NCBI GenBank assembly: GCA_011772205.1
Contig: WVZY01000008.1
Span: 1 to 64,000 of the forward strand
Length of the DNA stretch: 64,000 nt
Direction: 5' to 3'
DNA from: Candidatus Latescibacterota bacterium
Lineage (GTDB): Bacteria > Krumholzibacteriota > Krumholzibacteriia > WVZY01
Shown here: piece by piece, positions 1 to 64,000 of the stretch
Numbering within the stretch: position 1 is the first letter of the stretch
Layout: every line of letters starts with the position of its first letter
Program-made: the position numbers and the translations under genes
Notes under the pieces: model-generated
What the model saw: the letters and a program-made list of their open reading frames with translations, nothing else
What the model was told of the DNA's origin: nothing
The model's database searches: none

Positions 1-18
1 ACTTTCACCCGGCCAGAA

Positions 19-60
19 GCGCCAAGCTTCGCTTGGCGCGCTAACGTCCATGGCATCAGC
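19..60. other. attC-like inverted repeat at left edge
   Basis: A perfect 9-bp stem (19-27 pairs with 31-39, loop TTC) is followed by GCTAACG and CATCAGCTGC, elements that recur in the gaps of this array. It lies downstream of the CYTH gene, where the attC site of that cassette should be. A clear right-hand box is not visible, so the site is partial or degenerate. Confidence 0.35.
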
Positions 61-121
61 TGCAACTTGTTTTGGCTTTAACTAGCATCCTTGCATCTAC
101 CTGGTCAGCCGATGCGGTATC

Positions 122-640
122 TTATCCAACTCCGCCATTTAGCAAATCAATATAAGCTTTGTCTACAAGGTCGGGTTCGAGGATTCCAAGCTTATCTATC
201 AAGTCTCGAGCAATTCGAACACCTTCTGTCGCACCTTGACCGGGGAGCAGTACTACTTCCAGCTCGATGAACTTACCAAGTCCTTCGACCTCGTCTAAAT
301 GGATTCTCGTTTGACCGATAACATAGATAGTTCGCCGCTTCCGAACAACTCCTCGAATCCCAATAGAACGAGATAGAATTTCAATAATCTCTCCGGGTGC
401 TGAGATCGACGAACGAATATAGCGGCACTCTGATGGTTCGATGGAATCAGGCCGATCATAATAGATAAGTTCACCTTTTGAATCCGAGAATTTTCTCAGC
501 TTGAGGCGGCCTCTTGAGCTTCGGAAGAATGTATCCTCGTGATCGATGAGAGTCGGTCCACAGTCGGCGATCGCGTTCACTCGTTCCGTGATGGCCGTGA
601 GATCAGAAATCTTAGCCTTGATTTCAATATTTCGTCTCAT
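122..640 (-). CDS. CYTH domain protein (class IV adenylate cyclase-like)
   Basis: Small single-domain CYTH protein of about 172 residues. It opens with RRNIEIKAKI, the N-terminal acidic/lysine motif of the fold that holds metal and triphosphate, and continues with RLKLRKF, the YYDRPD segment and HLDEVEGLGKFIELEV, the usual late CYTH signature. The family includes class IV adenylate cyclases and thiamine triphosphatases that act on nucleoside or inorganic triphosphates in the cytoplasm; the substrate here is unknown. The start at 640 is preferred because family members begin at MRRNIE; an upstream ATG at 667 would add nine residues. It lies 63 bp downstream of the oxidoreductase gene, with no clear attC between them, so the two may share a cassette. 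Confidence 0.8.
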   Translation of the reverse strand: MRRNIEIKAKISDLTAITERVNAIADCGPTLIDHEDTFFRSSRGRLKLRKFSDSKGELIYYDRPDSIEPSECRYIRSSISAPGEIIEILSRSIGIRGVVRKRRTIYVIGQTRIHLDEVEGLGKFIELEVVLLPGQGATEGVRIARDLIDKLGILEPDLVDKAYIDLLNGGVG

Positions 641-703
641 TGGTTCTGTACCAGGAGGGAAAAGCATTACCTCAGCCGCTCAGCATACTGAAAAGCCATT
701 GCG

Positions 704-1729
704 TCAGAGGGATGGCTCATCAGACACTCTGACGATGAGTTTTCCCTTATTCGAACCATCGAATAGCCTATTGACAACATTTGGTGCTTGTTCGAGCCCG
801 TCAACGACGTCAATACGATACTGAATTTTTCCTTCAGCCAGCCATTTCGTTAGATCCGCCACAGCTTCTTCTACGCGATGCTCGTAATCCAGGACAATAA
901 AACCTTCCATTCGAGCACGTTTGACGAGAACATTACTGATATTATGCAGGCCGGCCTCAGGAGTCGTGGCGTTGTACTGTGAAATCAAGCCACACAGAAC
1001 GATCCGAGCTTTGAGGTTGATGTGACTTAAAACGGCGTCCAATGTCTTCCCCCCAACGTTATCAAAATAGATGTCGACTCCTCCCGAACAATGGCGCCTC
1101 AAGCTTCTGAGGACAGACTGCGTTTTGTAGTTGATAGCAGCATCGAAGCCGAGATCCTCTTTGATCCAACGACACTTCTCATCAGTTCCCGCAATGCCGA
1201 CGACGCGACACCCTTTTATCTTCCCTATCTGTCCAACCAATGAGCCGACAGCGCCCGCAGCAGCGGAAACGACAAGTGTTTCCCCGGGCTTCGGTTTGCC
1301 AATGTCAAGTAATCCAAAATAGGCCGTAGTTCCTATGTGCCCAAATAGCCCGAAATGAGCAGTCAGTGGAATAGTAGGATCTTTAGGTAGAATCCTGAGC
1401 CCGGATCCGTTGCTGACCGCATATTCCTGCCAGCCGATCAATCCCTGCACAATGTCCCCAGCATGAAAATTGGAATTGCGCGATTCTTCAACGACACCAA
1501 TAGCAAAACCTCGCATAATCTCACCGATCTGTATGGGCGGAAGATACGACTCAGCCTGATTCACCCAGATCCGATTCGTGGGATCGAGCGATAGATAAAT
1601 ATTGCGGACCAGAACCTGCTCCCCTTCCAGGGCTGGAACGGCCTCCTCCCGCAATACAAAATCCGACTCTTTGAGCATGCCGGCTGGTCGAGCAGCGAGA
1701 CGCCATTGGCGGCTAACTCTATCTCCCAT
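704..1729 (-). CDS. NADP-dependent oxidoreductase, CurA/MDR family
   Basis: A 341-residue medium-chain reductase of the zinc-independent leukotriene B4 12-hydroxydehydrogenase/curcumin reductase group. Family landmarks in order: SLDPTNRIW and a proline-rich segment near residues 50-65, IMRGFAIGVV, an NADP-binding AAAGAVGSLVGQ motif near 155, the DIYFDNVGGKTLD segment near 220, and GLISQYN near 248. It would reduce activated double bonds of alpha,beta-unsaturated carbonyls with NADPH in the cytoplasm. The length is normal and a GAAGGAGC ribosome site precedes the ATG. Confidence 0.88.
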   Translation of the reverse strand: MGDRVSRQWRLAARPAGMLKESDFVLREEAVPALEGEQVLVRNIYLSLDPTNRIWVNQAESYLPPIQIGEIMRGFAIGVVEESRNSNFHAGDIVQGLIGWQEYAVSNGSGLRILPKDPTIPLTAHFGLFGHIGTTAYFGLLDIGKPKPGETLVVSAAAGAVGSLVGQIGKIKGCRVVGIAGTDEKCRWIKEDLGFDAAINYKTQSVLRSLRRHCSGGVDIYFDNVGGKTLDAVLSHINLKARIVLCGLISQYNATTPEAGLHNISNVLVKRARMEGFIVLDYEHRVEEAVADLTKWLAEGKIQYRIDVVDGLEQAPNVVNRLFDGSNKGKLIVRVSDEPSL

Positions 1730-1909
1730 TTAACAAATGCTCCTTCATGGTAGGACACCTTCAACTGACGGCTCAATTCCATCAGCGTCTGTCGAGCATC
1801 TGGATGATCCAGCAGTTATTCATTTCTACCGCTACCGCTTATTTTGTTGCACTAATATCCGAATCGAGCTTGACTTGAGCACTTCTTATTCAGATATTTC
1901 AGCGCAGTT

Positions 1910-2224
1910 TCAAGGCGTCCATTGATACTTTTCAAGAGATATTCGATCATCACGATTAAATTCAATTCCCTCCGCCTCGAGCAGGATCCGCTGCTCTTGT
2001 TCATAATTAGGAGCTAAACGTTTGCTGATCCCGCCTTTTGCATTTACGACACGGTGCCACGGCACGCCGCTATCATCTGGCAATACTTTTAGAGCATATC
2101 CCACTTGTCGCGCATGCCCGGGCAAGCCGGCGATCTCCGCGACTTGCCCATAAGTGGCGACCATTCCTCTCGGAATGGACATCACAACAGAATAAATAAG
2201 ATCGTATTCTCTAAACGCCTTCAT
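1910..2224 (-). CDS. atl: Alkyltransferase-like protein (ATL), MGMT family
   Basis: A 104-residue protein of the O6-alkylguanine-DNA alkyltransferase fold. The helix-turn-helix and active-site strand are clear (VATYGQVAEIAG, ARQVGYAL), but the active site reads PWHRVV instead of PCHRVV: tryptophan replaces the acceptor cysteine. That makes it an ATL protein, which in studied bacteria binds alkylated guanine and hands it to nucleotide excision repair without transferring the alkyl group. Its ATG overlaps the stop of the GNAT gene by four bases (ATGA), so the two are translationally coupled in one cassette. Confidence 0.88.
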   Translation of the reverse strand: MKAFREYDLIYSVVMSIPRGMVATYGQVAEIAGLPGHARQVGYALKVLPDDSGVPWHRVVNAKGGISKRLAPNYEQEQRILLEAEGIEFNRDDRISLEKYQWTP

Positions 2225-2808: not shown

Positions 2809-4056
2809 TCACTCCAGCAACTTGCGATAAGAAGCTAAATGTTCTCCCAATGCACCCGATGCAACATACTCTTCCCTAATTGTACTCTCCATAAAATCCA
2901 AAACCTCTTTTGCTCTTCTCTTGTTTTTATCCTTGTAATAATGAATCAACAGACGAAACAAAGCGGCTCGATAATTATTCAACATATGCGAGGCTCTGGG
3001 CATATTATTATCTGCTACAGATGCAATCGATTTATAATTATCTCCATCCATGAAAACGTCTTCAATACATTTAATGTCCAATTCCAGCTCTGTGTCTTTA
3101 GTTTGCGTCGGTATCAACCTATATGTCGTCCCACACGATTGAAAAAAATCGCCTAGCCCATGGTACATTCCTGGATGACACGCTACCGAAAAATAAATGG
3201 ATCTGGCCCACTGGTTGGTTTTGACAATATCCGCCAATACGGCCGCTCCCGCGCTCAATCTACCTTCAAAATCAGGTTCCAATTCCCATTCAAAATCTTT
3301 GTCAATTTGTAGCTCAGCTTTTATCGTTTCTGGTACGGCTATCAATATCAAGTTCGTTTTCCATTTATACGGATGCATATCATGTATTTGTTCTCTTGAC
3401 CAGCTAATGGGGGCAGCATTGATTGCATTCTCGATACCGTATTTAATCATTTGAACGAACCAAGGTCTGTTCAATAAGGCAATCGGAATAACTGTAACAT
3501 CTCTTCTATAATTTTCGACCAATTGCAAATATTCTATTGGATTCGTGTCTGCATCACCACCCGTAAATAGGATTGCGTCGCGATCACAAGTCTTCAGGTT
3601 GTTTCTCCCATATTCGATTAACCAATCAGGCAGCCCGCCTTTCTCTCTTGCAAGCCTGAACTCAAAAACAGCCCTATCTACTTCGCCCTTTCCAAGATGT
3701 CTCCGTGCTCTTACGCCATATTCAGCACCGATGAAATAGTACGCATCGCCGTAACTTGGCTTTAATTCGACAGCTTTTCCCAAATAGGCAAGAACCTCAT
3801 CTGACTTGCGAATATCAAAGCCGGTCAAAGGCACTGAATCATAGCAAAGATAATGAGTAAAATACCCAAGGCAGTAATACAGTTCCAGATCATCATTATT
3901 CTCTATCAAGGCATGCTCAAGTATTTCAATTGCTTTTGGATAGTTAGCTTTTTTGAACTCTTCGATTGCTAACTTTTTCAGATCTGCTGCATATACGTAA
4001 GAACATGAATAAAAGGAAATTATAAATAGAGAAAATATTAATTTTAGAGATGTCAT
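2809..4056 (-). CDS. Secreted TPR protein with DUF2723-like C-terminal region
   Basis: A 415-residue exported protein. The N-terminus is a signal peptide (MTSLKLIFSLFIISF, cleavage after YAA). Residues about 25-150 look like tetratricopeptide repeats (AIEILEHAL, AYLGKAVELKPSYGDAYYFIGAEY). From about 165, DAILFTGGDADTNPIEYLQ and RRDVTVIPIALLNRPWF resemble the soluble C-terminal part of DUF2723 membrane proteins (protein O-mannosyltransferase-like), here without their membrane half. Role unknown; periplasmic location inferred. The ATG at 4056 is preferred over an in-frame GTG at 4068 because of the signal peptide and the AAGGTG site. Confidence 0.7.
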   Translation of the reverse strand: MTSLKLIFSLFIISFYSCSYVYAADLKKLAIEEFKKANYPKAIEILEHALIENNDDLELYYCLGYFTHYLCYDSVPLTGFDIRKSDEVLAYLGKAVELKPSYGDAYYFIGAEYGVRARRHLGKGEVDRAVFEFRLAREKGGLPDWLIEYGRNNLKTCDRDAILFTGGDADTNPIEYLQLVENYRRDVTVIPIALLNRPWFVQMIKYGIENAINAAPISWSREQIHDMHPYKWKTNLILIAVPETIKAELQIDKDFEWELEPDFEGRLSAGAAVLADIVKTNQWARSIYFSVACHPGMYHGLGDFFQSCGTTYRLIPTQTKDTELELDIKCIEDVFMDGDNYKSIASVADNNMPRASHMLNNYRAALFRLLIHYYKDKNKRRAKEVLDFMESTIREEYVASGALGEHLASYRKLLE

Positions 4057-4215
4057 TTCTATGTACACCTTATATTCGAAGAGTTATGCTCCAGCGTTCG
4101 TGCGCGATCGAGACTTTGCCCGGTCAATTGATATGCCTCCCGGTCTCCGGAACCTGCTGTGCGATCCACAATATTCGGGCGCGACCCGTGACAAAATGTA
4201 CATCCGCGGCGATAA

Positions 4216-4791
4216 TCACAACGCACCTGTTTCCCTAAATGTCTGAAACAGCGTTAATTCTTCGAGCACTCTCTGGCGACAGGGGGCGGACTGGGTCCAA
4301 GCCTCGCTGGTGCATCCACCCAATGGCGGGCAGCAGATAAATTTCAGTCGTTCGGGAAAGATTTTCTTCATCGTCAACAGAACACGGCGCATGTGCCATT
4401 CCGAAGAAACTAAAATCACTGTCACAAGCTGATCCAATAATCCGCTCTTTTCAATGACAGCTTTGGAGAACCTGGCATTTTCGAAGGTAGTACAAGATTG
4501 CTCTTCGACGAAAAGATCTTTTTCTGGGACACGCAGGCTGAGGGCGATCTCCTCCATGCGTTTGGCCTCAGGCAAACCGCGTGCATTGATGTCACCGCCC
4601 GTAACCAGCAACTTGGGAACGAGTTTATCATGATACAGTTGAATTCCGCGACGCGTGCGACGGACCAGCTCATCTTCAAGCGTCGATCCAAAAACAATTG
4701 CTAAATCCGCGAAAGTTGGCTCTTCCCGAAGGAAGAGCAGCCTAGTAATCTCCTCATCGGTCATCGGGATGGGTTTCAAACTATCATCCAC
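4216..4791 (-). CDS. YdcF/SanA family protein (DUF218)
   Basis: A 191-residue DUF218 protein. It shows the family strands ADLAIVFGSTLEDELVRRT, KLLVTGGDINARG and the conserved region SCTTFENARFSKAV followed by VILVSSEWHMRRVL. Relatives such as SanA and ElyC are linked to envelope functions, but YdcF-type soluble members have no settled role. No signal peptide or membrane helix is seen, so it is probably cytoplasmic. Length is typical of the short YdcF form. Confidence 0.82.
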   Translation of the reverse strand: MDDSLKPIPMTDEEITRLLFLREEPTFADLAIVFGSTLEDELVRRTRRGIQLYHDKLVPKLLVTGGDINARGLPEAKRMEEIALSLRVPEKDLFVEEQSCTTFENARFSKAVIEKSGLLDQLVTVILVSSEWHMRRVLLTMKKIFPERLKFICCPPLGGCTSEAWTQSAPCRQRVLEELTLFQTFRETGAL

Positions 4792-4936
4792 GAATGCTAT
4801 TTCGCCTCCCTTTTGGTTCTAATCCGTGGCACCTATGGATATTGTCGAGAAACCTGCAAACCAACGCACGACTCCCTGCCGGTAAGAACATGCCAAGTTT
4901 TTATCGTCACCGCTGTCCAATGACATGATGCCGCCA

Positions 4937-5296
4937 TTAGATTCTATCCAGCGTCTCACGCGTCTTTGACGTTCGCACGTTTCCTGTGTTCAACGTGGAA
5001 ATCGGCTCAAATAACATCACGTGAGCTTCTTCCTCGGCAACAGGCCGATGGTCAATTCCGCTGGGAACGATGATGAAGTCCCCCTCGGCGAGATCTAAGG
5101 CTCGATCTCTGAACTCCATGCGGAATCCACCTTTGATAACAAAAAACATCTCATCCTCATTCTCATGGTGATGCCAATCAAATGGGCCTTTGAATTTCAC
5201 GACTTTGACATATTGACCATTCAGCTCTCCCACAATACGTGGAACCCAGGGGTCTTCGAATTGTGCTAATTTGTTGTATATATTGATTTTATCCAT
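4937..5296 (-). CDS. Cupin domain protein
   Basis: A 119-residue single cupin. The first cupin motif carries the metal ligands as WHHHENEDEMFFVIKGG and the second is LAEGDFIIVPSGIDHRPVA. Such small cupins bind a metal and serve as isomerases, dioxygenases or regulators; the substrate is unknown. The start at 5296 is chosen because GGGAGGG lies just upstream and the domain begins there; an upstream in-frame ATG would add 40 residues outside the fold. The CGGC gene is immediately upstream. Confidence 0.8.
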   Translation of the reverse strand: MDKINIYNKLAQFEDPWVPRIVGELNGQYVKVVKFKGPFDWHHHENEDEMFFVIKGGFRMEFRDRALDLAEGDFIIVPSGIDHRPVAEEEAHVMLFEPISTLNTGNVRTSKTRETLDRI

Positions 5297-5916: not shown

Positions 5917-6282
5917 TTATTTTGTTCTACTATGTCGCTCAATTTCATCCAATTCTTCTAAAACTTTAAAGACAAACCGAGCAGGCCATTCTGCTACACA
6001 TCCACAAAGAAACAAAGCAACAGCAGTTGCTTCTACTATTTCCTTTCTTTCGGCTCCAAGGTCAACAGCACTGCTGACATGATACTCTATTCAACCATAG
6101 CATCCGTTGGCAATGCTTACTCCTAAAGCGATAAGCTCCTTGTGCTTTTGTTCAAGAGCTCCATCTTTAAATGCGTTCTCTTCGGCATTTGCTATTTCGC
6201 GAAAAGTATTGATGCCACTAAGGAACATCTTGGCATTATATTTTTTCCTAAACGCTCTGATTTCACTAATGTTATCGTACAT
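5917..6282 (-). CDS. AhpD-like protein with in-frame TGA; candidate selenoprotein
   Basis: A carboxymuconolactone decarboxylase/AhpD-like gene of 121 codons with one internal TGA at 6091-6093 (codon 64). Upstream the reading is KELIALGVSIANGCYG; downstream it continues in the same frame as IEYHVSSAVDLGAERKEIVE and VLEELDEIERHSRTK, then TAA. The family motif is CxxCxxxH; here it reads C-Y-G-(TGA)-I-E-Y-H, so the TGA sits exactly at the second, redox-active cysteine. A hairpin suited to a bacterial SECIS follows (6061-6078). TGA is used as an ordinary stop elsewhere in the window. Read-through with selenocysteine would give a full-length thiol-dependent peroxidase-type protein; otherwise this is a pseudogene with a Cys-to-stop change. 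GGGAGG precedes the ATG. Confidence 0.6.
6061..6078 (-). promoter_or_regulatory. Possible bacterial SECIS hairpin
   Basis: Minus strand GTCAGCAGTGCTGTTGAC folds into a 7-bp stem (one G-T wobble) with loop GTGC. It begins 12 nt after the in-frame TGA, so the loop is about 20 nt from the TGA, within the distance known for bacterial SECIS elements, which also favour a small loop with an early G or GU. It overlaps coding sequence, as bacterial SECIS elements do. Short palindromes also occur by chance. Confidence 0.45.
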
Positions 6283-6375
6283 AGTGCCTCCCTAGGTAAC
6301 GTACTGCCCCCGAATAACAAAACAAATATTAAATTCGTTTGCACTCCGCTTACTTCAATCGGCTGAACATTGGAG

Positions 6376-7456: not shown

Positions 7457-7551
7457 TTTTAACTCGAGCGCCAGATGCGGCTGGCAAAGCTTACTAATTG
7501 GCTCCCCAAACCAATACTCATCACCGACCGTCTGCTGCGCGCGAGTTGGAC
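7457..7551. other. attC-like recombination site
   Basis: Left box ttttaac, inner arm GATGCGGCTGGC, right arm GTCTGCTGCGCGCGA and a perfect right box gttggac (GTTRRRY) at 7545-7551. It separates the 7435 start from the small gene that ends at 7601. Confidence 0.55.
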
Positions 7552-8738: not shown

Positions 8739-8828
8739 CCTCAATGCCCCGGCGCTTATCCGGAGCCAGGATCCCGGTGTGTCAAAGCATCTCCAAACTC
8801 ATAAGACTGTCGGCTGCAGAAGTTTATC
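8739..8828. other. attC-like recombination site
   Basis: Degenerate left box cctcaat followed by GCCCCGGCGCTTATCCGGAGCC, matching by position the arm seen in better sites (GCC-CGGCGCTAAG). The right arm is GTCGGCTGCAG with a weak box gtttatc. Confidence 0.45.
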
Positions 8829-8844
8829 AGGCAGTTCGCTTGAA

Positions 8845-10323: not shown

Positions 10324-10527
10324 CTACGACTGCTCAGCCGACGCGCCCTTTATACGCTTCATCAATCCAACAATGTACTGGATCAATATAATCAAGGCTG
10401 CCAGCGCCCCGGCAAGAATTCCGACAGCCGGACTGAGATCCAGAGGCCAGATTACGCACCCGGCGTAAATCAGCCCGCTTCAAACTGCCATCCCGATCAG
10501 GGCTTTGAAAGCTCTTAGTAACTCCAA
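10324..10527 (-). pseudogene. Small membrane protein gene with in-frame TGA
   Basis: From a TTG start with AGGTGA seven bases upstream, the frame reads LLRAFKALIGMAV, then TGA at 10480-10482, then SGLIYAGCVIWPLDLSPAVG, ILAGALAALIILIQYIVGLM and KRIKGASAEQS to TAG. The two halves form one coherent two-helix membrane protein of 67 codons. The TGA probably replaces TGG (Trp) or another residue. No SECIS-type reason exists for read-through here, so it is read as a broken gene or a sequence error. Confidence 0.5.
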
Positions 10528-10553
10528 AATATATTCACCTGTCTTCTGAAGAT

Positions 10554-16631: not shown

Positions 16632-16907
16632 TCACCTGCGCCGCCTTCTCGGGCCGCCTGAGTCACGTCGTGGCCGCGCTTCGTTCACGTTAAGCTTGCG
16701 ACCATCTAACTCTGTCTCGTTCAGCGCCGAAATCGCAGCTGACGCTTCTTCGGCATTCGGCATCGTCACAAAACCGAATCCACGAGGCCGTCCCGTTTCG
16801 CGGTCAGTCGGGAGATTAATTTCCTCGACTACACCGTACTGAGCGAACTTCTCACGAAGCTGCTCTTCTGTAGTCGAATAGGCCAAATTACCAACATAAA
16901 TCTTCAA
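16632..16907 (-). CDS. RNA-binding protein, RRM type
   Basis: A 91-residue RNA recognition motif protein of the bacterial glycine/arginine-rich type. RNP2 is [12 protein letters not shown]1 is RGFGFVTM, and the tail is basic (GGPRRRRR). Such proteins bind single-stranded RNA and are often cold-induced. The TTG at 16907 is preferred because GGAGGTG lies 6-7 bases upstream and the fold begins at KIYVGN. Confidence 0.88.
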
Positions 16908-17029
16908 GGTACACCTCCGGTTTGTGATGACCACGGCGGCATGGAGGCCTACGCGGACGTCACGGAACAGTTCTGGATCTCACAGTCTTTGCTGGGCTCT
17001 CGCTAAAAATGCTACCTCCTTTAAACGAG

Positions 17030-17116
17030 ACCTAACGCCCCGGCGCTCTGACGAGGGCTGCGCCCGAAGGGTCCTCCGTCGCCCCGAGCGCCTGCAGGCC
17101 CTTCTGCAGCAGCTCC
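17030..17116. other. attC-like recombination site (right box unclear)
   Basis: Perfect left box acctaac followed by GCCCCGGCGCTCTGACG, closely like other sites. The right arm CTGCAGGCCC-TTCTGCAGCAGC runs into the stop of the SnoaL-like gene, and no clean GTTRRRY is seen. Confidence 0.5.
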
Positions 17117-17518
17117 TTAAGCTGCACCCAAACGTTTCATAATCCGTCTTATCGGTTCTATGTTAACATACAATTGCCACACGGCGATTTGTTCGCTTTT
17201 AACGACAGCACGCCACGCTGCTGGCACCGACCAATGATACTCCGGGTTGAGAGCTCCATCTTTAGTGAACGTGCCAGCGGCGGTGCCCAGAAAAACCACC
17301 GTGTTGTCCCGCGTAAATACCTCTTCTACTTCTATTCTGTAGTCTGGAACTATCTTGAAATATTCCGCCCACGCCTCATGCATTCTCTCGCGACCTTTCA
17401 CTTCTTCCCCATCCGGCTCAATGTAGACATGATTAGGCGTCATCAACTCGAAAATCCCATCAACTCGCTTGGTGTTAATCGCTTCAACGAATAATGATGC
17501 TACTTCATTGGGCGTCAT
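17117..17518 (-). CDS. SnoaL/NTF2-like protein
   Basis: A 133-residue NTF2-fold protein: VASLFVEAINTKRVDGIFEL, MTPNHVYIEPDGEEVKGRE, YRIEVEEVFTRDNTVVFLG and AAWRAVVKSEQIAVWQLY, the usual cone-shaped fold in order. Members serve as isomerases, hydrolases or ligand carriers; function here unknown. No signal peptide. Confidence 0.8.
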   Translation of the reverse strand: MTPNEVASLFVEAINTKRVDGIFELMTPNHVYIEPDGEEVKGRERMHEAWAEYFKIVPDYRIEVEEVFTRDNTVVFLGTAAGTFTKDGALNPEYHWSVPAAWRAVVKSEQIAVWQLYVNIEPIRRIMKRLGAA

Positions 17519-18361: not shown

Positions 18362-18934
18362 TCAATAAAAGACATTTTCTGTAGCAACACAGCCTGCTTC
18401 GTCGAAGCCAACGCCCTCCACTTCCAGCAGCGCCCTTTTCATTTCAAGGCCACCCTGATACCCTCCCAGCGTTCGATCAGTGCGTACGGCTCGGTGGCAC
18501 GGAATAATCACGGGAAACGGATTGGTGGCCAAAGCTGTGCCGACAGCGCGAGCCCCAAACGGCTCGCCTAGATGTTTAGCTATCCGTTTGTAGGTGCTTA
18601 CAGATCCGCGAGGAATTCCGTGCTCGGCGCGTAGAACCTTCTGTTGAAACTTGGAACAGAGATCGAGACGGATAATGTCGAGCGAAAAGAGAACATCGTT
18701 TCCACGCAAGAATGCTTCGATTTGATCAGCATGCTTATCAATTACACTGCACGAAGAGGAGATGGCATCCGAAAATGACGCTTTCACAATTTGAACGGCC
18801 GAGAGTCCCGGTTTGGAAAGCGCCACGCGGCAAATCCTAGGACGGCCGCCTTGGATTGACCAAATGACAGCAACAGGTCCAAAAGGGCTCGAGCGGAAGC
18901 AGTAAGATACCTGTGCTGTGACTGTGTTCTTCAT
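18362..18934 (-). CDS. ogt: Methylated-DNA-[protein]-cysteine S-methyltransferase
   Basis: A protein of about 190 residues that directly reverses O6-alkylguanine in DNA. The active site is intact (IIPCHRAVRTDRTLGGYQGG), with the DNA-binding helix as STYKRIAKHLGEPFGARAVG and the arginine finger region preserved. It differs from the ATL gene at 1910, which lacks the cysteine. No clear ribosome site is visible; a GTG at 18952 would add six residues. Confidence 0.88.
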   Translation of the reverse strand: MKNTVTAQVSYCFRSSPFGPVAVIWSIQGGRPRICRVALSKPGLSAVQIVKASFSDAISSSCSVIDKHADQIEAFLRGNDVLFSLDIIRLDLCSKFQQKVLRAEHGIPRGSVSTYKRIAKHLGEPFGARAVGTALATNPFPVIIPCHRAVRTDRTLGGYQGGLEMKRALLEVEGVGFDEAGCVATENVFY

Positions 18935-18990
18935 TAGTTTCGCGAATTGCACATCAGCTGCAGGGAGACGCTAAATGCTCCTGTGATTTT

Positions 18991-20233: not shown

Positions 20234-20662
20234 TCATTCTGTCTTCGCCACGATATAAATGTATCTCAGTTGCCCCGATCCTGTATTGATTACGTTGTGT
20301 TCTGTTCTTGGCGGGCAGTACGCAACCCTACTAGTTCTCAAGATCAGAGTAGGCCTGTCGGTAATCACCATTTTGCCTTCGCCTTCGAGTACGACTAAGA
20401 CTTCTTCTTATGAGTCGGTATTATGAGTTCCCACTGACTTTCCTGGAGCGAGCACGACCAGCCCCGCGCGCATCGTCACGGTTTCTGGCGGCCCAGCTAG
20501 TACTCTCATGTAATCTTTCACATCGGGATTTAGCGTGACAACCTTTGGTTCAGGGACCTTCTCCGCGTAAACCTTCAGACTAAAAACAGAAATAATGCCT
20601 AAAATCCATACAAAAACCAGGCTGCTCAAGACGAGTCGATGAACTTGAAATAAAAATCGCAT
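20234..20662 (-). pseudogene. Secreted cupin gene with premature TAA
   Basis: From an ATG with GGAGG three bases upstream the frame gives a signal anchor (LVLSSLVFVWILGIISVFSL), then VLAGPPETVTMRAGLVVLAP and GKSVGTHNTDS, a TAA, and on in the same frame EEVLVVLEGEGKMVITDRPT, VAYCPPRTEHNVINTGSGQL and RYIYIVAKTE to TGA. The stop cuts the first cupin motif (G-x5-H-x-H-type region) while both flanks remain cupin-like. Otherwise intact, so the mutation is recent or a sequence error. Confidence 0.75.
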
Positions 20663-20710
20663 AATCCTCCATGTGACACACGCATTATACAACTCTTAGC
20701 CAAACCGGGG

Positions 20711-33128: not shown

Positions 33129-33151
33129 TCAGCGATGTGATAGAAGGCTGT

Positions 33152-39857: not shown

Positions 39858-39957
39858 TGCTAACGACCCGGAACTCAGCCGCGCGTGGCGAAGCCGTCCA
39901 AGCGCTGCGCAGCTCAAAAGCACGCCACAGGCCGACAGCTGCATGCGCGTATTAGAC
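39858..39957. other. attC-like recombination site, 100 bp
   Basis: Left box tgctaac at 39858, arm GGAACTCAGCCGCGCG, inner repeat AGCGCTGCGCAGCTC, right arm GACAGCTGCATGCGC and right box attagac at 39951-39957. Confidence 0.6.
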
Positions 39958-42891: not shown

Positions 42892-43043
42892 CCTGTACTT
42901 TCGTCTACGCGTCGTTTAAGGGCTAGCGCTGAGCCGCGAGCTGGCCTGGCTCAGGTCCATAGAAAGTATGGGTCGTGACAGGATAGGGCCGTCCAGCGCA
43001 ACCGGCGACCAACGAAGCGAAGCGAAATTGGGCGCCAGTGAGA

Positions 43044-46438: not shown

Positions 46439-46520
46439 GCATAGCGTTCCGGCGCAAAGCTGCGGGAGGGCGTTCCTTGCCCCGCAAGGGACGTGATAGC
46501 CGACCGTAAGCCTCAGCATG
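46439..46520. other. attC-like recombination site
   Basis: Left box gcatagc, arm GGCGCAAAGCTGCGGG, central TTGCCCCGCAAGGGACG hairpin and right arm TAAGCCTCAGCATG with degenerate box gtcagcc overlapping the next stop. Confidence 0.5.
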
Positions 46521-47195
46521 TCAGCCGGCACTCAAGCGTGATCTTGAGATGTTTTGCCCACGCTTCAGTGTCTGCAGAAGAACAATACCGGGGCCTGCCA
46601 GCCGCGTCATGAAGAATCCCTCTTTTCCGAACAAAGTCTTTCTCAGGGCTCCGACACGTTGAACATCGTAACCCACGGTTTTCGCGAAGGCAGCAAGATT
46701 GCCCGTACTTACGATAATTTCCTCCCCTTCCCTTAGCTCTTCCCTCTGGAAATCTCCACGGCCATGAATCAAGACGGTACCGCTTCCCTCTACACGCTGG
46801 AGTACCAGGCCGGCACCGCCGAACAGGGCAGCTCCTGCCCTGCGGGCCACGGCGATCGAAATCTCGATGTTGGAACCCCACGCTGCGAGAAACGCGCCCC
46901 GGGTTGTGAGAACGGGACCCTCATCAGCCAGATCCCAGCTAGCGATATGTCCAGGTTCGTTCGCACCTAGTGTAACTCGTTGCTCATCGCTCGTGGCCAC
47001 TATTCTCGCCAGAGCGACTCCTTCCCCTGAGAAGACGCGCTTTACGGCTGCTGAGATCCCGCCGGGCACTCTCACGTCCCACTCAAGACCAGACGAATAA
47101 GACACTATGGAGCCCTTCGATGCCCAGAGGCTCTCGTCCTTCTGCAGGCTGAGCTGCGCGGTTTGCGCCACTGTCCCGTGGATTCTGACGTCCAT
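46521..47195 (-). CDS. AIM24 family protein (TIGR00266-like)
   Basis: A protein of about 224 residues of the AIM24 fold: VRIHGTVAQTAQLSLQKDES, ASKGSIVSYSSGLEWDVRVP, GAFLAAWGSNIEISIAVARR, GAGLVLQRVEGSGTVLIHGR, LREGEEIIVSTGNLAAFAKT and FMTRLAGPGIVLLQTL. The double beta-barrel is tryptophan RNA-binding-like; function unknown in bacteria. Start at 47195 is the first methionine of the domain; an upstream in-frame ATG would add 18 residues. Confidence 0.82.
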   Translation of the reverse strand: MDVRIHGTVAQTAQLSLQKDESLWASKGSIVSYSSGLEWDVRVPGGISAAVKRVFSGEGVALARIVATSDEQRVTLGANEPGHIASWDLADEGPVLTTRGAFLAAWGSNIEISIAVARRAGAALFGGAGLVLQRVEGSGTVLIHGRGDFQREELREGEEIIVSTGNLAAFAKTVGYDVQRVGALRKTLFGKEGFFMTRLAGPGIVLLQTLKRGQNISRSRLSAG

Positions 47196-47269: not shown

Positions 47270-47375
47270 ATCAAACGGCTTTGAGCTGAGCGGTCCGCAT
47301 TAGCAACTCGCAAACTCGTGACGTCTTAAGTCCGGGTCCGCTCCAGCGAGTGGCTATGCGGCAGCCAATATCAGT
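47270..47375. other. attC-like recombination site (weak)
   Basis: Left box atcaaac, arm CTTTGAGCTGAGCGG, right arm CTATGCGGCAGCCAATATC. Position between two genes fits, but both boxes are degenerate. Confidence 0.35.
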
Positions 47376-49408: not shown

Positions 49409-50405
49409 TCAATGACTCAGTACGATGCGATAATGCGCCTGACCGTTTCTTAGTCTTTCGATGGCCTCGTTTACTTGATCAAAGCTATATTTTTCGATAA
49501 CGGGCTTTATATCATGTTGGCCTGCAAAGTTTAGCATCCTGGCAACATTCCCTGGGCTACCAACAGGAGAACCCGAAATAGAACGCTGTCCCATGATCAA
49601 GGGAAATACGCCTACATCAAGTGGTTCCAAGGTTGTACCTACAAAATGCAAGCGGCCTTTCGGTCGTAATGTTCCTAAATGAGCATTCCAGTCAAGTTTT
49701 ACGTTGACTGCGGAAAGAACCAGATCGAATTGTCCTGTTGCTGCCTCAATCTCAGATAGCTCACGGGAATTCAGCGCATAATGAGCGCCCAGCTCCAACG
49801 CTTCTATTTTTTTCCTTTCACTCGATGTAAATGCCGTGACTTCACAACCCCAAGCGTTCAAAAACTGCAGCGCCATATGCCCCAAACCACCTATTCCTAT
49901 GACTCCGACCTTGTCCGTAGGCTTTATTTCAAATTGAATCAACGGATTGAAGACTGTAATTCCGCCGCGGGGGGTGGGCACTTTCTTTGTCAACGGAATC
50001 AGGCAGTCTTACAACACTGGCTGCACTGGCACGAACCTTATCTGCAAAACCTCCGTGACGCCCAACAATAGTTCCCTGTGCCGAAGAACACAAATTGTGA
50101 TCTCCGGACAAGCAAGAATTGCAGGTCATGCAATAGCCCGAATGCCAGCCCATACCTACGTAATCACCTATATTTAAATGACTTACATTATCACCGATCG
50201 ATGATATTGTGCCTACGACTTCGTGTCCGGGGACAATGGGATATTGGGTAATATTCCAATCGTTATCGATCATATTCAGATCGCTGTGACAGATACCACA
50301 ATGCTCGACATCGATTTCAACTTCATTATCGCCCAACAAACCAGGGTCGTACTCGAATGCGGAGAGTTCGCCTTTGGGTTCATGAACAGCATAAGCCTTG
50401 ATCAT
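49409..50405 (-). pseudogene. Zinc-type alcohol dehydrogenase (CAD/YahK-like), frameshifted
   Basis: The N-terminal part (VEHCGICHSDLNMIDNDW, PIVPGHEVVGTISSIG, CMTCNSCLSGDHNLC) holds the catalytic and structural zinc ligands; the C-terminal part, in another frame, gives GGITVFNPLIQFEIKPTDKV, GVIGIGGLGHMALQFLNAWG and FDLVLSAVNVKLDWN. The frames meet near 49970-49985 at a C-rich run, where the family has APLLCAGIT: the LLC residues, including a zinc-ligand cysteine, are lost. So this is a real frameshift with deletion, or a homopolymer error plus deletion. AAGGAG precedes the ATG. Confidence 0.8.
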
Positions 50406-51453: not shown

Positions 51454-51576
51454 GCCTAACGCCTTCGGCATCAGCGGCGCGATGGACCAGCGCGTTTGTC
51501 AGCTCTTGCAGCCGGGACGCCCGCTCATATACAGGGGCGTGACGCCGAAGTCACTCGGCTGCATGCCTTGTTATGC
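51454..51576. other. attC-like recombination site, 123 bp (one of the clearest)
   Basis: Perfect left box gcctaac at 51454-51460, arm GCCTTCGGCATCAGCGGCGCG, long right arm GCCGAAGTCACTCGGCTGCATGCC (in two parts), and right box gttatgc at 51570-51576. The two ends are nearly mirror images. Confidence 0.75.
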
Positions 51577-51616: not shown

Positions 51617-52804
51617 TCAATGCGGCAGATCAACAGAGCCTTCACCAGATTTCTGTTCCGTCGTCTTCTTGTCGATCCAATCCTCCATCACTCTCAGGGC
51701 AAGCCCGATATTGCCGATCTGGCAGTGATTGTGTGCGTGCTCTTCCCTCATGAAGACTCTGTCGGCAACGGACCTCGCGGAGGTGAGGCGGCGCAATTGC
51801 TCTTTATGCAGTCTGAAAGGTATGAAGTGGTCCTGTCTGGAGACCAGGATCAGCACATCCTGTCTCACTTTGTCCGAGTGCAAGTTCTCTTCGTTCATAC
51901 TGAAAGCGAAGTCCAGAGCTGCCATCGGCTCGTCGAGGCCCAACACGTACATCATATGGCTGATGTTCCATGCCTCCATACCGCCTTTCCGGATCTTCCA
52001 TCTCGATAGCTTATTGGTGAACTCCCGCAAGTGATTGCGGAAGAACATGAGGAGCCAAGTAGCTGGTGCCGGGGCCACCTTTCGGTAGTCATAGGCGTGT
52101 CCCGAGGCAATGACTCTTTTGACTCGCGGTTCGAAGGCCGCCGTCCTTAGAGCGAAATATCCCCCCATGGAGAGGCCGATCAATGTGACTTCTTCCAGGC
52201 CGAAATGATTCAGGACCGCTCCGACAGGTTTCTCCCATTCGAAATCGAGCAAAAGACCGCTCTTGCGCCGAGCAGCTCCCTGCCCGGGCCCATCGAACCC
52301 GATGATCCTGAAGCTCGATGCAGCGAAGTACCGCATCAGAGAGTAGAACTCCTCGATGAAGGAGTCGTAGCCCCCGTGCAGGATGATGTTACCTCTTGGC
52401 GTCCCCTCCGGATCGACGATTATGGCGGGCAGGTGATTGGCGCCGTAGGGGATCCGGACCCTCTCGATCCCGTGATCTTCAAAGGCGCGATAGAAGAGCT
52501 CGGAGAACCGGTCGTACAGCGGCTGCTTGTCCGGGTCGCCGGGAAAGGTGTAAAACTCGACCGCCCGGTAGTAGAAGGCCGCGTTCATCAGCCGGTCCTC
52601 AGAGAGGGCCTCCTCCGCCAGCCGGAGCATTTCCGTCTTCCATTCGGTGAATGTGGTGATCTTTTTTCCAGCTTCTTCTAGATCTTCAAACCGGGCGTAA
52701 CCCAGAGAATACGGACGGTTCAGCTGGAAATTGAACAGCTGGTTCTTGTGGAACCGATGGTATCCCACTGGAAAGGCGAATCCACCATGGCCCTCAGAAT
52801 TCAT
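51617..52804 (-). CDS. Alpha/beta hydrolase, acylaminoacyl-peptidase/dihydropseudooxynicotine hydrolase-like
   Basis: A protein of about 395 residues. A helical N-terminal part (RLAEEALSEDRLMNAAFYYR) precedes an alpha/beta hydrolase core: ILHGGYDSFIEEFYSLMRYF, IIGFDGPGQGAARRKSG, VTLIGLSMGGYFALRTAAFE (GxSxG) and LVSRQDHFIPF with an acid, HNHC near the end giving the histidine. The layout matches the bacterial 2,6-dihydropseudooxynicotine hydrolase/BEM46-type group that cleaves C-C or ester bonds. Start chosen downstream of the attC site. Confidence 0.78.
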   Translation of the reverse strand: MNSEGHGGFAFPVGYHRFHKNQLFNFQLNRPYSLGYARFEDLEEAGKKITTFTEWKTEMLRLAEEALSEDRLMNAAFYYRAVEFYTFPGDPDKQPLYDRFSELFYRAFEDHGIERVRIPYGANHLPAIIVDPEGTPRGNIILHGGYDSFIEEFYSLMRYFAASSFRIIGFDGPGQGAARRKSGLLLDFEWEKPVGAVLNHFGLEEVTLIGLSMGGYFALRTAAFEPRVKRVIASGHAYDYRKVAPAPATWLLMFFRNHLREFTNKLSRWKIRKGGMEAWNISHMMYVLGLDEPMAALDFAFSMNEENLHSDKVRQDVLILVSRQDHFIPFRLHKEQLRRLTSARSVADRVFMREEHAHNHCQIGNIGLALRVMEDWIDKKTTEQKSGEGSVDLPH

Positions 52805-52864
52805 GGCCTCCTCTATTGCGAAGGACACGCTGGACGTTGTTCGACTGGCCCCAGACGAACAGTG

Positions 52865-52966
52865 ACATAACAGCATGGCGCGAAGCTGCGCGCCGGGCCA
52901 GGCGCGATGGATGCGTTGCAGCCGTTGCGACAGGCCGGAATATCAGCTCGAGCAGGCTTGTTAAGT
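52865..52966. other. attC-like recombination site, 102 bp
   Basis: Left box acataac at 52865, arm GGCGCGAAGCTGCGCGCC (itself a strong stem), right arm CAGCTCGAGCAGGCTT and right box gttaagt at 52960-52966. Confidence 0.7.
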
Positions 52967-52980
52967 GGGCGGTGCCAATC

Positions 52981-53528: not shown

Positions 53529-53629
53529 AGCTAATACTCAGACGCTCAGCTGTGGCGGTTTGGCACCCGCTGCAGCTGATATCCTTACAATTCAATGCCG
53601 CCGCCGTCAGCTGAATGATATCGTTAGAC
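53529..53629. other. attC-like recombination site, about 100 bp
   Basis: Weak left box agctaat, arm CGCTCAGCTGTGGCGG, inner GCTGCAGCTGATATCC, right arm GCCGTCAGCTGAATGATATC and a perfect right box gttagac at 53623-53629. Confidence 0.6.
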
Positions 53630-55491: not shown

Positions 55492-55583
55492 GCTCAACGC
55501 CTCGGCGCTAAGCTGCGGGCAACACGACTATTACCCCCCAAGCGGCGTAACACGCGATCGCCAGCATCAGCGGGAGGTCAGAG
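55492..55583. other. attC-like recombination site, 92 bp
   Basis: Perfect left box gctcaac at 55492-55498, arm GCCTCGGCGCTAAGCTGCGGGC, right arm GCCAGCATCAGCGGGAG and degenerate right box gtcagag. Confidence 0.65.
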
Positions 55584-55801: not shown

Positions 55802-55869
55802 GTCTAACGAATACGCAAAGCTGCAGGCGCCGTCACATAGAAGCCAGCAGCTTCAGAGGCATGTTGGAT
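55802..55869. other. attC-like recombination site, 68 bp (clearest)
   Basis: Both boxes are perfect: left gtctaac (RYYYAAC) at 55802-55808 and right gttggat (GTTRRRY) at 55863-55869. Arms ATACGCAAAGCTGCAGGC and CAGCAGCTTCAGAGGCAT fold on each other. Confidence 0.8.
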
Positions 55870-56364: not shown

Positions 56365-56460
56365 AACTAACGCCTTGCCGCTCATCCGCTGGATGGCTCG
56401 CCCGGCTGAAAGTCGGCTGAATCGGTGTGCTGCATCCTGAACAGTAACGGTGTGTTGGGC
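56365..56460. other. attC-like recombination site, 96 bp
   Basis: Left box aactaac, arm CTTGCCGCTCATCCGC, right arm CGGTGTGCTGCATCC and a perfect right box gttgggc at 56454-56460. Confidence 0.65.
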
Positions 56461-56919: not shown

Positions 56920-57010
56920 GCCTAACGAATCATGAGCTGAGTGGCAAATGAGCCCAACCCTTTTGTCCGATCGAGTGAGGGATTGGGAGATGTGCTGAAA
57001 ACGGTAGTCA
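56920..57010. other. attC-like recombination site (right end unclear)
   Basis: Perfect left box gcctaac at 56920-56926, arm CATGAGCTGAGTGG and right arm GATGTGCTGAAAACGGTAGTC next to the following stop. No clean right box. Confidence 0.45.
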
Positions 57011-57562: not shown

Positions 57563-57604
57563 TTCGATGTACCTCCTGCTGGTTCGCGTCACCTGACGCT
57601 CTGC

Positions 57605-57685
57605 CGCTAACCCGCCTTGCCTATTTCGTGCGCTCACTCCACCCGGCGTCGGAGCAGCGCTGCCGGCTGCAGCGGCAAGTCATAC
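57605..57685. other. attC-like recombination site, 81 bp
   Basis: Left box cgctaac, then CCGCCTTGCC; right arm CCGGCTGCAGCGGCAA and degenerate right box gtcatac at 57679-57685. The right half is alike to the site at 58306. Confidence 0.55.
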
Positions 57686-58305: not shown

Positions 58306-58393
58306 GCCTAGCGCAAAGGGAATCAGCCGCGGGCCTTGCCAAAACTCGATGCCCCAAAGGCCGTGGCCCATCGGCTGCAACGTCAAGTTATAC
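58306..58393. other. attC-like recombination site, 88 bp
   Basis: Left box gcctagc, arms AATCAGCCGCGGGCC and GGCCGTGGCCCATCGGCTGC, and right box gttatac at 58387-58393. Confidence 0.6.
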
Positions 58394-59843: not shown

Positions 59844-59960
59844 ACATAACGCCGCGTATCATCTGGAATGCTCAGCTGGTAGAACCATCTGGCGGCCCGT
59901 GCCATGCAAGGCCATGACAGAGAGCTTTGCCAGATGGATGCGCATGTCGCCGGCTCTCCC
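59844..59960. other. attC-like recombination site
   Basis: Left box acataac at 59844, arm CATCTGGAATGCTCAGCTGG, centre GCCATGCAAGGCCATG hairpin, right arm GCTTTGCCAGATGG. The right box is degenerate (gtcgccg). Confidence 0.55.
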
Positions 59961-60601: not shown

Positions 60602-60715
60602 AGCTAACGGCATGGTGCTGAGCTGCGCAGCCAACATGGCGTCGCACTCGGCACTGAGCACTAAGACGCTCGTCAGCTTCAGCCGCGTGACAGGTGGCTG
60701 ACAATGTAGATCGGA
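60602..60715. other. attC-like recombination site
   Basis: Left box agctaac at 60602, arm GGTGCTGAGCTGCGCAGCC, right arm CGTCAGCTTCAGCCGCGTGAC. Right box not clear before the next stop. Confidence 0.5.
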
Positions 60716-61349: not shown

Positions 61350-61450
61350 TCGGACGGCCTGCGGCATGCCCCTAAGCTGCGCTTGGAAGATGCGTCCCTT
61401 GGCTTGCAGGGAACGTAATAGCTGTCCATCAGCTTCTTGGCGTGTTATGC
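61350..61450. other. attC-like recombination site
   Basis: Degenerate left box, then CCCCTAAGCTGCGCTTGG, centre CCCTTGGCTTGCAGGGAACG hairpin, right arm CATCAGCTTCTTGGCGT and right box gttatgc at 61444-61450. Confidence 0.65.
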
Positions 61451-62078: not shown

Positions 62079-62290
62079 GCATAACGATCAAGCGATCTGC
62101 TATGGCGCTTGCCGACGCCACTATACGCCCTAGTTAATATTTACAGTTCAAAAAGTATGCGAAACTCCCAGCGCCATCAGCAGAAAAGCCCTATCCTGGC
62201 CTTCAGCCGAGGCCCTTGCTGATCCTCGCTAAAACACATTGCTGATTGGCCGTCGGCTGCAGAGGCTTGTCAAGTTGCTCATTATGCGAG
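62079..62290. other. Gap with one or two attC-like sites
   Basis: Left box gcataac at 62079 begins a short element that may end at gttaata near 62140. A second right half, GGCCGTCGGCTGCAGAGGCTTGTC, lies at about 62248-62271. This may mark a cassette whose gene has been lost. No gene is seen between 62048 and 62296. Confidence 0.4.
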
Positions 62291-62296
62291 TTCTCT

Positions 62297-62789: not shown

Positions 62790-62891
62790 GTCTTACGCCC
62801 CCGTGCTAAGCTGCGAGCCGATCCTGTCGAGCCGGCTGCCCTACAGCCAGCGTGATAGGTTGGAGCCATCATCTTTAGCGGCTTGTCGGGC
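62790..62891. other. attC-like recombination site, 102 bp
   Basis: Left box gtcttac, arm GCCCCCGTGCTAAGCTGCGAGCC, right arm TTAGCGGCTT and right box gtcgggc at 62885-62891. An inner gttggag at 62859 is an alternative right box. Confidence 0.6.
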
Positions 62892-62897
62892 AATGTC

Positions 62898-63164
62898 CTA
62901 TTTACTTAATAATGTTTCACAGAAGTTAAGATCGTCATAGCAGCATTCCATAAGACCACTTGTGGTTTTGCCCCATAGATTCACGGTCACTGCGCGAACA
63001 GCAGCCGTCGGTCCGAAATACGTGAGTGTGTCGTCCCGGTGTATGGTTGGACCGTACCAAGAATAATATCCCTGCACACCTGGAAGTTCATAGTAAACGA
63101 CCTCGGCCTGCGCGAAACCATAAAGCGCAATTAAAAGAAAAAGGATTGCAATTGAAATCTTCAA
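62898..63164 (-). CDS. Truncated secreted protein, relative of 61463
   Basis: An 88-residue frame with a signal peptide (IAILFLLIALYGFAQA), then PGVQGYYSWYGPTIHRDDTL and RAVTVNLWGKTTSGLMECCY. It parallels the first half of the 61463 protein (PDIQGLYSVDST, IRLCGIADTGLLSC) and stops where that protein continues for another 100 residues. So it is the N-terminal half of a paralogue cut short at the cassette end. TTG start with AGGAA upstream. Confidence 0.55.
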   Translation of the reverse strand: MKISIAILFLLIALYGFAQAEVVYYELPGVQGYYSWYGPTIHRDDTLTYFGPTAAVRAVTVNLWGKTTSGLMECCYDDLNFCETLLSK

Positions 63165-63195
63165 ATTCCTATGACCTCATATTGATGATCTGTGC

Positions 63196-63277
63196 CTTTA
63201 ACGCAGAATGGCCTGCGTATGTCCTGCAGCCACGGAGTGGCTGTCAAGCGCATGTGCTCGCTGGGCGGCAGTAGACT
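63196..63277. other. attC-like recombination site
   Basis: Left box ctttaac, arm GAATGGCCTGCG, centre CAGCCACGGAGTGGCTG hairpin, and degenerate right box gtagact. Confidence 0.45.
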
Positions 63278-63381
63278 AATGGCAAATGTCATGAGTAAAA
63301 CGGACCCCCTCCTGCACTACTGAAGGTGCACACGAGCCCACCAAGGCAATCCCAGGCCGTGATGGAAATCGCCTTGGCCCT

Positions 63382-63795
63382 CTACTCGCTGCTTGCAGGC
63401 GGCTGGTCGCTATTGGCGATCAGACGGGCGATCTTCCATGAGCCGTCAGGCTGGCGTTTTACGATGAACACGGACTTTCTTTCGTCCTCGATCGGCTCGC
63501 CACCGGCTCTTGGCATGGCCGTCACCGTGCAGGCACTCCGGAAGTGCCCCTAGTCCCCAGCTACTTCGACCTCCAAAAGCTCACCGCCTCCATTGACGGC
63601 GAATTCATCAAAGACGGATTGATACGGCGAACGAATAGCTTCCCTTCCAATCACGGCTGGCTGATTCTGAGGCATCAAGACCGGATCATCCGTGTAAAGG
63701 GCAAGAAGAGCACCGGCGTCACCGGCAAGCCACCCGGCATGCCATTCCTCAGCAAGCTGCCTGATCGCATCTGTATCTTCAGTTTGCCCGGCCAT
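63382..63795 (-). pseudogene. SnoaL/SgcJ-like gene with premature TAG
   Basis: The frame MAGQTEDTDAIRQLAEEWHA, GWLAGDAGALLALYTDDPVL, MPQNQPAVIGREAIRSPYQS and GGGELLEVEVAGD meets TAG at 63550-63552, then goes on as GHFRSACTVTAMPRAGGEPI, EDERKSVFIVKRQPDGSWKI and ARLIANSDQPPASSE to TAG. Relatives have GDWGYF at this point, so TGG became TAG. Otherwise a complete NTF2-fold protein of about 137 codons. Confidence 0.78.
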
Positions 63796-63828
63796 TCCCG
63801 TTACCGATGATGACGTGCCGCCTGACAT

Positions 63829-64000
63829 TTAGTATCTTGCCCCATAGTGCCCAATACATCGCCAGGAAAAGGCAAGATATCACCAACCACCAATTCTTCT
63901 TAACCGCTCTAATACTCCATACTCATTAAATGTATACGTTAAAATGTTGGATCTTTCAGTGCTGGAAAAACAATGCCGTGCACGGATGACAAATCGAATA
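63829..64000. other. Right edge, no firm gene
   Basis: A minus-strand frame is open from the window edge to a TGA at 63880 (ending FNEYGVLERLRRIGGW) and could be the tail of a gene that starts beyond 64000. Another frame has one hydrophobic stretch (WWLVISCLFLAMYWALW). Neither is convincing. Confidence 0.2.

Follow-up and report, generated by a model that had tools for sequence, protein, structure and literature searches.

The first 64,000 positions of C64, a 268,689-bp contig in an 81-contig, 4.13-Mb draft genome (96.5% complete) of a Krumholzibacteriia bacterium, hold a genuine integron cassette array whose recombination sites (attC) have decayed and hardly fold into a single-strand hairpin. 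We refer to this whole stretch of 64,000 nucleotides as the window. In our reading, to which we give a probability of roughly 0.78, it is a large and old gene-cassette array, a fossil CALIN (a cluster of attC sites without an integrase), whose integron integrase is absent from the assembled genome. A preliminary description, made from the letters of the window, had proposed that an uncultured bacterium other than Vibrio carries here a sedentary cassette array of very large size, and in this it was right; the decay of the sites and the near-loss of their folding had escaped that description. The feature as a whole is delimited by gene strand, by model matches and by the ordinary genes that begin at 64,531:

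1–64000, minus strand: decayed cassette array, transcribed leftwards.

The evidence for the array comes chiefly from a covariance model, R1, whose 26 training sites are all attC of same-class relatives, with none from the window; they are intact sites from relatives' arrays adjoining the integrase gene (intI), and searches were run with filters off. Applied to the window, R1 returned 31 matches up to E 10, 25 of them on the minus strand and 6 on the plus strand. On the minus strand, 17 matches score at least 15 bits and 20 at least 11.5 bits (best 39.9, second 33.8); on the plus strand one reaches 15 bits and three reach 11.5, and all three mirror minus-strand matches. The control covered 184,689 bp in the remainder of the contig, all of it but the 20-kb stretch L027, and yielded 12 matches up to E 10, with none at 15 bits or more, three at 11.5 bits or more, and a best score of 14.3. 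The 20 counted matches also fall preferentially between genes: their mean non-coding fraction is 0.70, versus a background of 0.17 (none of 5000 random placements was as high), 14 are at least half non-coding, and 4 lie fully within an open reading frame (ORF) of a greedy list. Because a model trained on relatives thus finds sites that share one orientation, are mostly intergenic and do not occur at such strength in the control, we regard the array as genuine. The single orientation (20 minus-strand matches at 11.5 bits or more, against three plus-strand mirrors) agrees with what the preliminary description had proposed to look for with an attC model on both strands.

A second model, R2, combined 18 right-half window sites with 8 sites of relatives. 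It finds 26 minus-strand sites at 13 bits or more, 18 of which are its own training sites; the 8 that it adds outside training include four in the left half (13.1–21.8 bits). Three plus-strand matches exceed 12 bits, all of them mirrors, one of which (53558–53629, 23.9 bits) scores slightly above its minus-strand partner (23.2 bits), and the best score in an 80-kb control was 10.0 bits. The roughly 30 attC-like gaps of the preliminary description therefore exist in part, with about 20 (R1) to 26 (R2) recognisable sites. A search of Rfam gave no match. The array gaps share sequence motifs, and the attC consensus of the class reads CTTGCAGC.GACGG ... GC.GCTGAAG ... CGTTAG; L'' and L' boxes with an extra unpaired base are present (TGCAGC.GACGG and GCAGCTNAG-like), the base standing in the same column as in relatives when the alignment is judged by eye. 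The sites and remnants are listed below, with scores from R1 unless R2 is named; cores are the terminal AAC and GTT triplets, z is the folding score defined further on, and untrained means outside the training set of R2.

52865–52966, minus: attC-like site, best R1 match (39.9 bits); both cores kept; z −2.23.
62790–62891, minus: attC-like site, 33.8 bits; both cores lost; z −0.25.
51454–51576, minus: attC-like site, 24.0 bits; both cores kept; z 0.03.
55802–55869, minus: attC-like site, 22.3 bits; both cores kept; z −1.15.
58306–58393, minus: attC-like site, 21.8 bits; 3' core lost.
33044–33145, minus: attC-like site, 20.7 bits; both cores lost.
62189–62275, minus: attC-like site, 19.5 bits; both cores lost.
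25739–25834, minus: attC-like site, best of the left half, R1 19.1 and R2 21.8 bits (untrained); 3' core lost.
47270–47359, minus: attC-like site, 18.9 bits; 5' core lost.
60602–60695, minus: attC-like site, 18.8 bits; 5' core lost.
57591–57685, minus: attC-like site, 17.7 bits; both cores lost.
53529–53629, minus: attC-like site, R1 17.1 and R2 23.2 bits (untrained), plus-strand mirror 23.9 in R2; within a 258-aa ORF that has no Pfam match.
46447–46530, minus: attC-like site, 16.4 bits; both cores lost.
59844–59952, minus: attC-like site, 16.1 bits; 5' core lost; z −2.04.
55492–55583, minus: attC-like site, 15.6 bits; 5' core lost.
39858–39957, minus: attC-like site, 15.2 bits; 5' core AAT.
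37978–38072, minus: attC-like site, 11.8 bits; both cores kept as read in the alignment; z 0.17.
56365–56435, minus: attC-like site, 12.5 bits.
7457–7551, minus: weak attC-like match, 13.2 bits; not found by R2.
35710–35810, minus: attC-like site, 10.5 bits (below the counted 11.5); R2 training member.
42912–43015, minus: attC-like site, 9.8 bits (below the counted 11.5); R2 training member.
61356–61450, minus: attC remnant, R2 22.9 bits, untrained.
17030–17127, minus: attC remnant, R2 21.2 bits, untrained; z −2.37.
8739–8832, minus: attC remnant, R2 17.7 bits, untrained; z 1.55.
56920–56988, minus: attC remnant, R2 17.0 bits, untrained.

Since the remnant at 53529–53629 lies inside a 258-aa frame, that frame may not be a genuine gene, or it may run through two cassettes. 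One further R1 match, 16791–16847 (17.1 bits), we hold to be false: it lies within an RRM gene (16635–16979) and has no core. It is still counted in the match totals, the core count, the bins and the placement test, and was omitted from the fold test.

The sites of the window are degraded relative to those of the class. Among 41 array-strand sites of relatives (26 of which trained R1), 37 score 37–93 bits under R1 and the other four 21–32 bits. Both core triplets are kept in 3 of the 17 strongest window sites, versus 11 of 15 untrained sites of relatives (Fisher p 0.0036), and with 6 nt of slack at either end the counts are 3 of 17 versus 12 of 15. Held to the form of a functional attC, with R'' ending in AAC and R' starting with GTT, 3 of the 17 strongest thus conform and 14 do not; the sites are mostly poor examples of the inverted repeats that the preliminary description had reported. 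Folding was computed for the single bottom strand with DNA parameters, as a z-score against dinucleotide shuffles, on 22 window sites: 16 of the 17 strongest R1 matches, those at 56365, 37978 and 35710, and three found by R2 alone (7457–7551, like the rejected match, was omitted). The bottom strand of a functional attC folds into a hairpin; the window sites have a mean z of −0.57, with 3 of 22 below −2, versus −5.29 for the 26 training sites of relatives and −5.97 for 13 untrained ones (untrained versus window, Mann–Whitney p 3.5e-5). Whole gaps behave in the same way (window mean −0.28, n = 55, 7 below −2; relatives' arrays −2.51, n = 41, 23 below −2; p 2e-5), so the weak folding does not depend on where the model places the site boundaries. 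Nor did folding of gaps as single bottom strands, which the preliminary description had proposed as a check, reveal any excess over control gaps, the mean z being −0.13 in the left half, −0.29 in the right half and −0.64 in the control. An attC site that cannot fold should not recombine.

Simpler searches gave an early indication of the same state. Neither a scan for paired RYYYAAC and GTTRRRY motifs nor one for R/L boxes with a single unpaired base sets the array clearly apart from the remaining contig: at a score of 8 or more, the R/L-box scan gives 7.29 hits per 10 kb in the sense of the array and 5.27 on its other strand, with 4.70 and 5.93 in the rest, and at 10 or more it gives 0.47 and 0.62 in the array and 0.83 and 0.64 in the rest. 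As such plain scans work on the intact arrays of relatives, their failure here was a first hint of decay. It is also one of the arguments for regarding the window as no integron at all, only an ordinary island of co-oriented, horizontally acquired genes, together with the weak folding and the long same-strand runs elsewhere in the contig. The one-strand layout claimed by the preliminary description does hold, as each of the 48 genes that a hexamer model predicts from 704 to 63,795 is on the minus strand (the greedy list, drawn from the minus strand alone, has 80 ORFs of at least 60 aa). Strand monotony is nevertheless weak evidence, because elsewhere on the contig the same model finds 26 and 36 successive genes on one strand. 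The control searches leave the island strongly disfavoured, with a very slim chance of being right: the matches to an independently trained model run in one orientation, lie mostly between genes and are absent at that strength from the control, and the array includes a cassette gene of a family associated with integrons:

35822–36160, minus: Cass2 cassette gene, integron-associated effector-binding protein (PF14526, E 2.2e-15).

The recognisable sites are unevenly distributed. From left to right, successive 16-kb bins hold 1, 2, 5 and 12 R1 matches (Kolmogorov–Smirnov test versus uniform, p 8e-4; one of the two in the second bin is the probably false match), and 12, 15, 12 and 16 gaps of at least 70 nt. 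If cassettes entered at the right end, those on the left are older, and such a gradient is what ageing would give. We entertain a stratified fossil, in which entry took place in order at the right end, decay increases leftwards, and most genes outlived their sites as domesticated chromosomal genes; we hold this tentatively, the odds being somewhat against it. If it is true, attC decay could serve as a clock for capture order, age and the death of the integrase. The gradient might instead reflect the source of the cassettes, the left half carrying cassettes with a foreign type of attC. R1 is class-specific, and attC types vary between taxa according to the part of PMC8352920 available, both of which favour such an origin. 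We consider it unlikely, since a working attC type should show an excess of folding and the left-half gaps show none (mean z −0.13, n = 27, none below −2, sense strand).

We then consider the integrase. In the own draft, no protein exceeds the cut-off of the integron integrase model TIGR02249 (best 80.9 versus 265 bits), and on the window's contig there is none among the matches listed; the tyrosine recombinase family PF00589 has six members in the draft and none on this contig. The first 20 kb of contigs C56, C73 and C47, read for an integrase or a piece of the array, hold isolated attC-like matches only. An attachment site belongs at the array end from which cassettes read away, and in nine relatives with intact intI searched by R1, intI and cassettes are co-oriented, with the sites downstream of intI. 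As the cassettes of the window read leftwards, the attachment site is expected at the right end, and no intI is there. The last minus-strand ORF ends at 64,267, which puts the right border at about 64.3 kb; the minus-strand pattern stops at 64,531, and the contig continues 204,689 bp further right. This flank begins with three plus-strand genes, which we take to be AmmB-like, MEMO1-like and membrane spermidine-synthase-like, followed by a cluster that presumably encodes haem biosynthesis. An integrase to the right of 64,000, as the preliminary description had it, is thereby rejected, and its statements that the window lacks an integrase and that the array spans at least 64 kb stand, with the right end now located and the left cut at the contig end. 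Of the outcomes it had named as telling against an integron, the flank of ordinary operons without an integrase was found, and few or randomly oriented matches were not. The window thus has the two marks of a CALIN: attC sites, as 20 minus-strand R1 matches of 11.5 bits or more (mostly degenerate), and, on its right flank, no adjoining integrase, there being no integrase match on the contig.

Integrases are common in the class; genome G044, for example, has intI at 52,033–52,977 of one of its contigs. A match over the cut-off occurs in 40 of 80 genomes (own included; some are partial or at contig ends), versus none of 18 more distant genomes, and R1 matches at E 0.001 or better occur in 32 of 38 genomes, again with the own genome included. 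Among the six genomes of the own family, G005 has an intact intI and G002 has intI in pieces, a C-terminal piece (L046, G002:C392) at 3833–5059 in a frame from which the central part of the protein is missing, with the N-terminal piece on a second contig (C207:6729–7004); the own genome (G000), G001, G003 and G004 have no integrase over the cut-off, several of these being incomplete drafts. One intact and one fragmented intI among six genomes is consistent with loss of the integrase in the family. As a separate observation, attC sites lie on both sides of the C-terminal piece in G002.

The G005 genome bears on a different origin. Cassettes are known to insert at attG-like chromosomal sites, and the window could be a CALIN built at such a non-classical site by an integrase from elsewhere, never its own integron and later decayed. 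Contig C1 of G005, a genome with intact intI, carries nine attC matches at five scattered places (near 5.2, 307, 838 and 1166 kb and 2.038 Mb). Eight of the nine form pairs 0.57–1.27 kb apart, at four of the places, as though cassettes had gone in one at a time at various points of the chromosome. The PF00589 and TIGR02249 searches likewise found no remnant of intI on the window's contig. We regard this origin as rather unlikely, because an array of at least 64 kb greatly exceeds the average CALIN, which has almost 6 attC in the available part of PMC9024848. Around the MEMO1-like gene of G004 and G005, where an array or an empty site was looked for, the gene order differs and no attC match exceeds 11.7 bits in 100 kb; the absence of an array beside this gene fits an own integron and an attG-like origin alike.

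Several points weigh against a fossil CALIN whose integrase is gone. The draft is 96.5% complete, and an integrase may sit in the missing part; on the left, the data stop at the contig end. With few recognisable sites there, the cassette nature of the left half draws mostly on strand, gene type and the four R2 remnants (13.1–21.8 bits). A foldable minority persists (3 of 22 sites and 7 of 55 gaps with z below −2). Finally, the contig begins with a repeat that also begins contig C56:

1–46, strand not assigned: repeat X, recurring at C56:17–62 with one mismatch in 46.

The first 23 bases of repeat X, with up to 3 mismatches, occur at only two places in the assembly. It carries a GCGCCAAGC-GAA-GCTTGGCGC hairpin, and on both contigs the likeness stops where the minus strand reads GTTAGCG, at the place of the 3' core in an attC-like sequence with a weak R1 score (10.1 and 10.6 bits). 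From its sequence, repeat X looks like a cassette present twice, where the assembly broke. Its near identity argues that a cassette moved or was copied after most sites had decayed, and suggests a more recent duplication of a cassette; the attC-like sequence beside the second copy (C56:55–172) folds somewhat (z −2.28). Isolated attC-like sites also occur elsewhere in the own genome (C56:4309–4397, C73:1632–1732, C47:767–884 and C50:11385–12464), the first three of which do not fold (z 1.43, 1.30 and −0.73).

These points bear on whether a working integron is present, its integrase gene absent only from the draft and its array still shuffled. The assembly in 81 contigs at 96.5% completeness would allow for this, repeat X suggests a cassette present at least twice, and contigs of six relatives (G019, G025, G029, G038, G056 and G075) break 216–341 bases downstream of intI, so that assemblies do fail at arrays. 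We judge it quite improbable all the same: the upstream end of the array, where intI is expected, is assembled into ordinary genes, and working sites must fold, which those of the window hardly do, unlike those of the ten relatives compared (nine with intact intI).

The course of events behind the fossil CALIN was probably as follows. Cassettes would have been captured one by one at an attachment site at the right end, the end to which the orientation of the attC sites points, giving the co-oriented genes of mixed origin, separated by class-type attC sites, that are observed. The integrase, absent from the draft, would then have been lost. Left unmaintained, the attC sites have mutated until mainly their central boxes can be recognised and they have nearly lost the single-strand hairpin required by an integrase. 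The captured genes would have stayed fixed on the chromosome, the longest probably selected as ordinary genes and some broken.

The genes themselves agree with the unrelated functions reported in the preliminary description. Pfam scans of 60 window proteins and 10 segments identified GNAT acetyltransferases, DinB/DUF1572 proteins, cupins, pirin, methyltransferases and alkyltransferase domains, as well as ferritin, SnoaL, a CAAX protease, a tricorn-like protease, BNR propellers, an RRM protein and Cass2; a good share of the scanned proteins had no Pfam match. The third-position GC content (GC3) of array genes averages 0.514 (sd 0.084, n = 51) versus 0.598 (sd 0.043, n = 146) in the remaining contig, with twice the spread (Levene p 1e-9), and looks mixed and foreign. 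The longest frames are intact, at 1098, 1092 and 795 codons, and most of the larger captured genes still look to read through. As these frames stayed intact while attC sites lost their structure, we infer purifying selection, and the longest cassette genes were probably kept as ordinary chromosomal genes. Not all were kept, as three broken genes indicate:

49409–50405, minus: alcohol dehydrogenase, broken by a frameshift, with GroES-like and zinc-binding domains in two overlapping frames.
20237–20695, minus: cupin gene with an in-frame TAA (Pfam scans).
63385–63828, minus: SnoaL/DUF4440-type gene with an early stop and an apparent continuation in another frame, without a Pfam match there.

Further genes deserve mention in their own right. 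A CMD/AhpD-type gene (5920–6291, minus) has, by reading, an in-frame TGA at the second cysteine of its CxxC core; PF02627 is found in each half, though only weakly in the second (E 0.0011), an AhpD selenoprotein model aligns to the N-terminal half with a score under its cut-off, and the same genome encodes SelA (C8:286950–288047). The gene is probably a cassette-borne selenoprotein, a reading that we prefer to that of a pseudogene. A small membrane-protein-like frame at 10327–10534 (minus) also reads with an in-frame TGA (MAV*SGLIYAG), through pseudogenisation or recoding. The array has two different genes with alkylguanine-alkyltransferase domains (1910–2224 and 18362–18952), and the 3.3-kb propeller gene, compared with plasmids at the nucleotide level, had no match.

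An array of 64 kb with dead sites and mostly open long genes makes it possible to ask what happens to captured genes once the capturing machinery is dead: which of them stay, which break, and at what rate attC sites decay. Old arrays, it further suggests, are undercounted by structure-based surveys, and the taxa considered for integrons gain a class with frequent integrase matches over the cut-off (40 of 80 genomes).

Among known systems, sedentary chromosomal integrons such as the Vibrio superintegrons comprise dozens of cassettes of unrelated function in one orientation. The window is like them in its dozens of one-oriented cassettes, and differs in having no intI or identified attI, in its decayed attC sites and in its very large genes (1092 and 1098 aa). 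It shares its attC consensus with the integrons of same-class genomes; unlike the window, 9 of the 10 examined with the model keep an intact intI, and their sites mostly score 37–93 bits. Inverted intI form a sub-clade, and attC are taxon-specific, in the available part of PMC8352920. Full-text searches of an open-access library found no paper that names any taxon beginning Krumholzibacteri together with integrons, and the phylum list in the accessible portion of PMC8618304, which reviews proposed origins of CALINs, does not include Krumholzibacteriota. Loss of integrase function is itself familiar from the available parts of the sources on repeated intI inactivation in Xanthomonas (PMC12444791) and on intI pseudogenes, nearly a third of intI genes (PMC2426708). 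There, as here, cassettes persist and become stable; the loss in those cases was judged from intI, whereas here intI is not found and the attC sites have decayed. Extremely degenerate attC regions are mentioned once in the accessible text of PMC2674596, and CALINs have already been proposed as degraded integrons, in the part of PMC9024848 noted above. A decayed array is thus not itself a new kind of element; what seems new is its size, the loss of folding with long genes persisting, and the host class. Structure-based finders would probably miss most of it. Like other CALINs, the window has attC-like sites in one orientation, mostly at gene junctions and without an integrase nearby; unlike those averaging almost 6 sites, it is far larger, and most of its sites lack a core and hardly fold. 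CALINs are known, and this one is unusually large and decayed.

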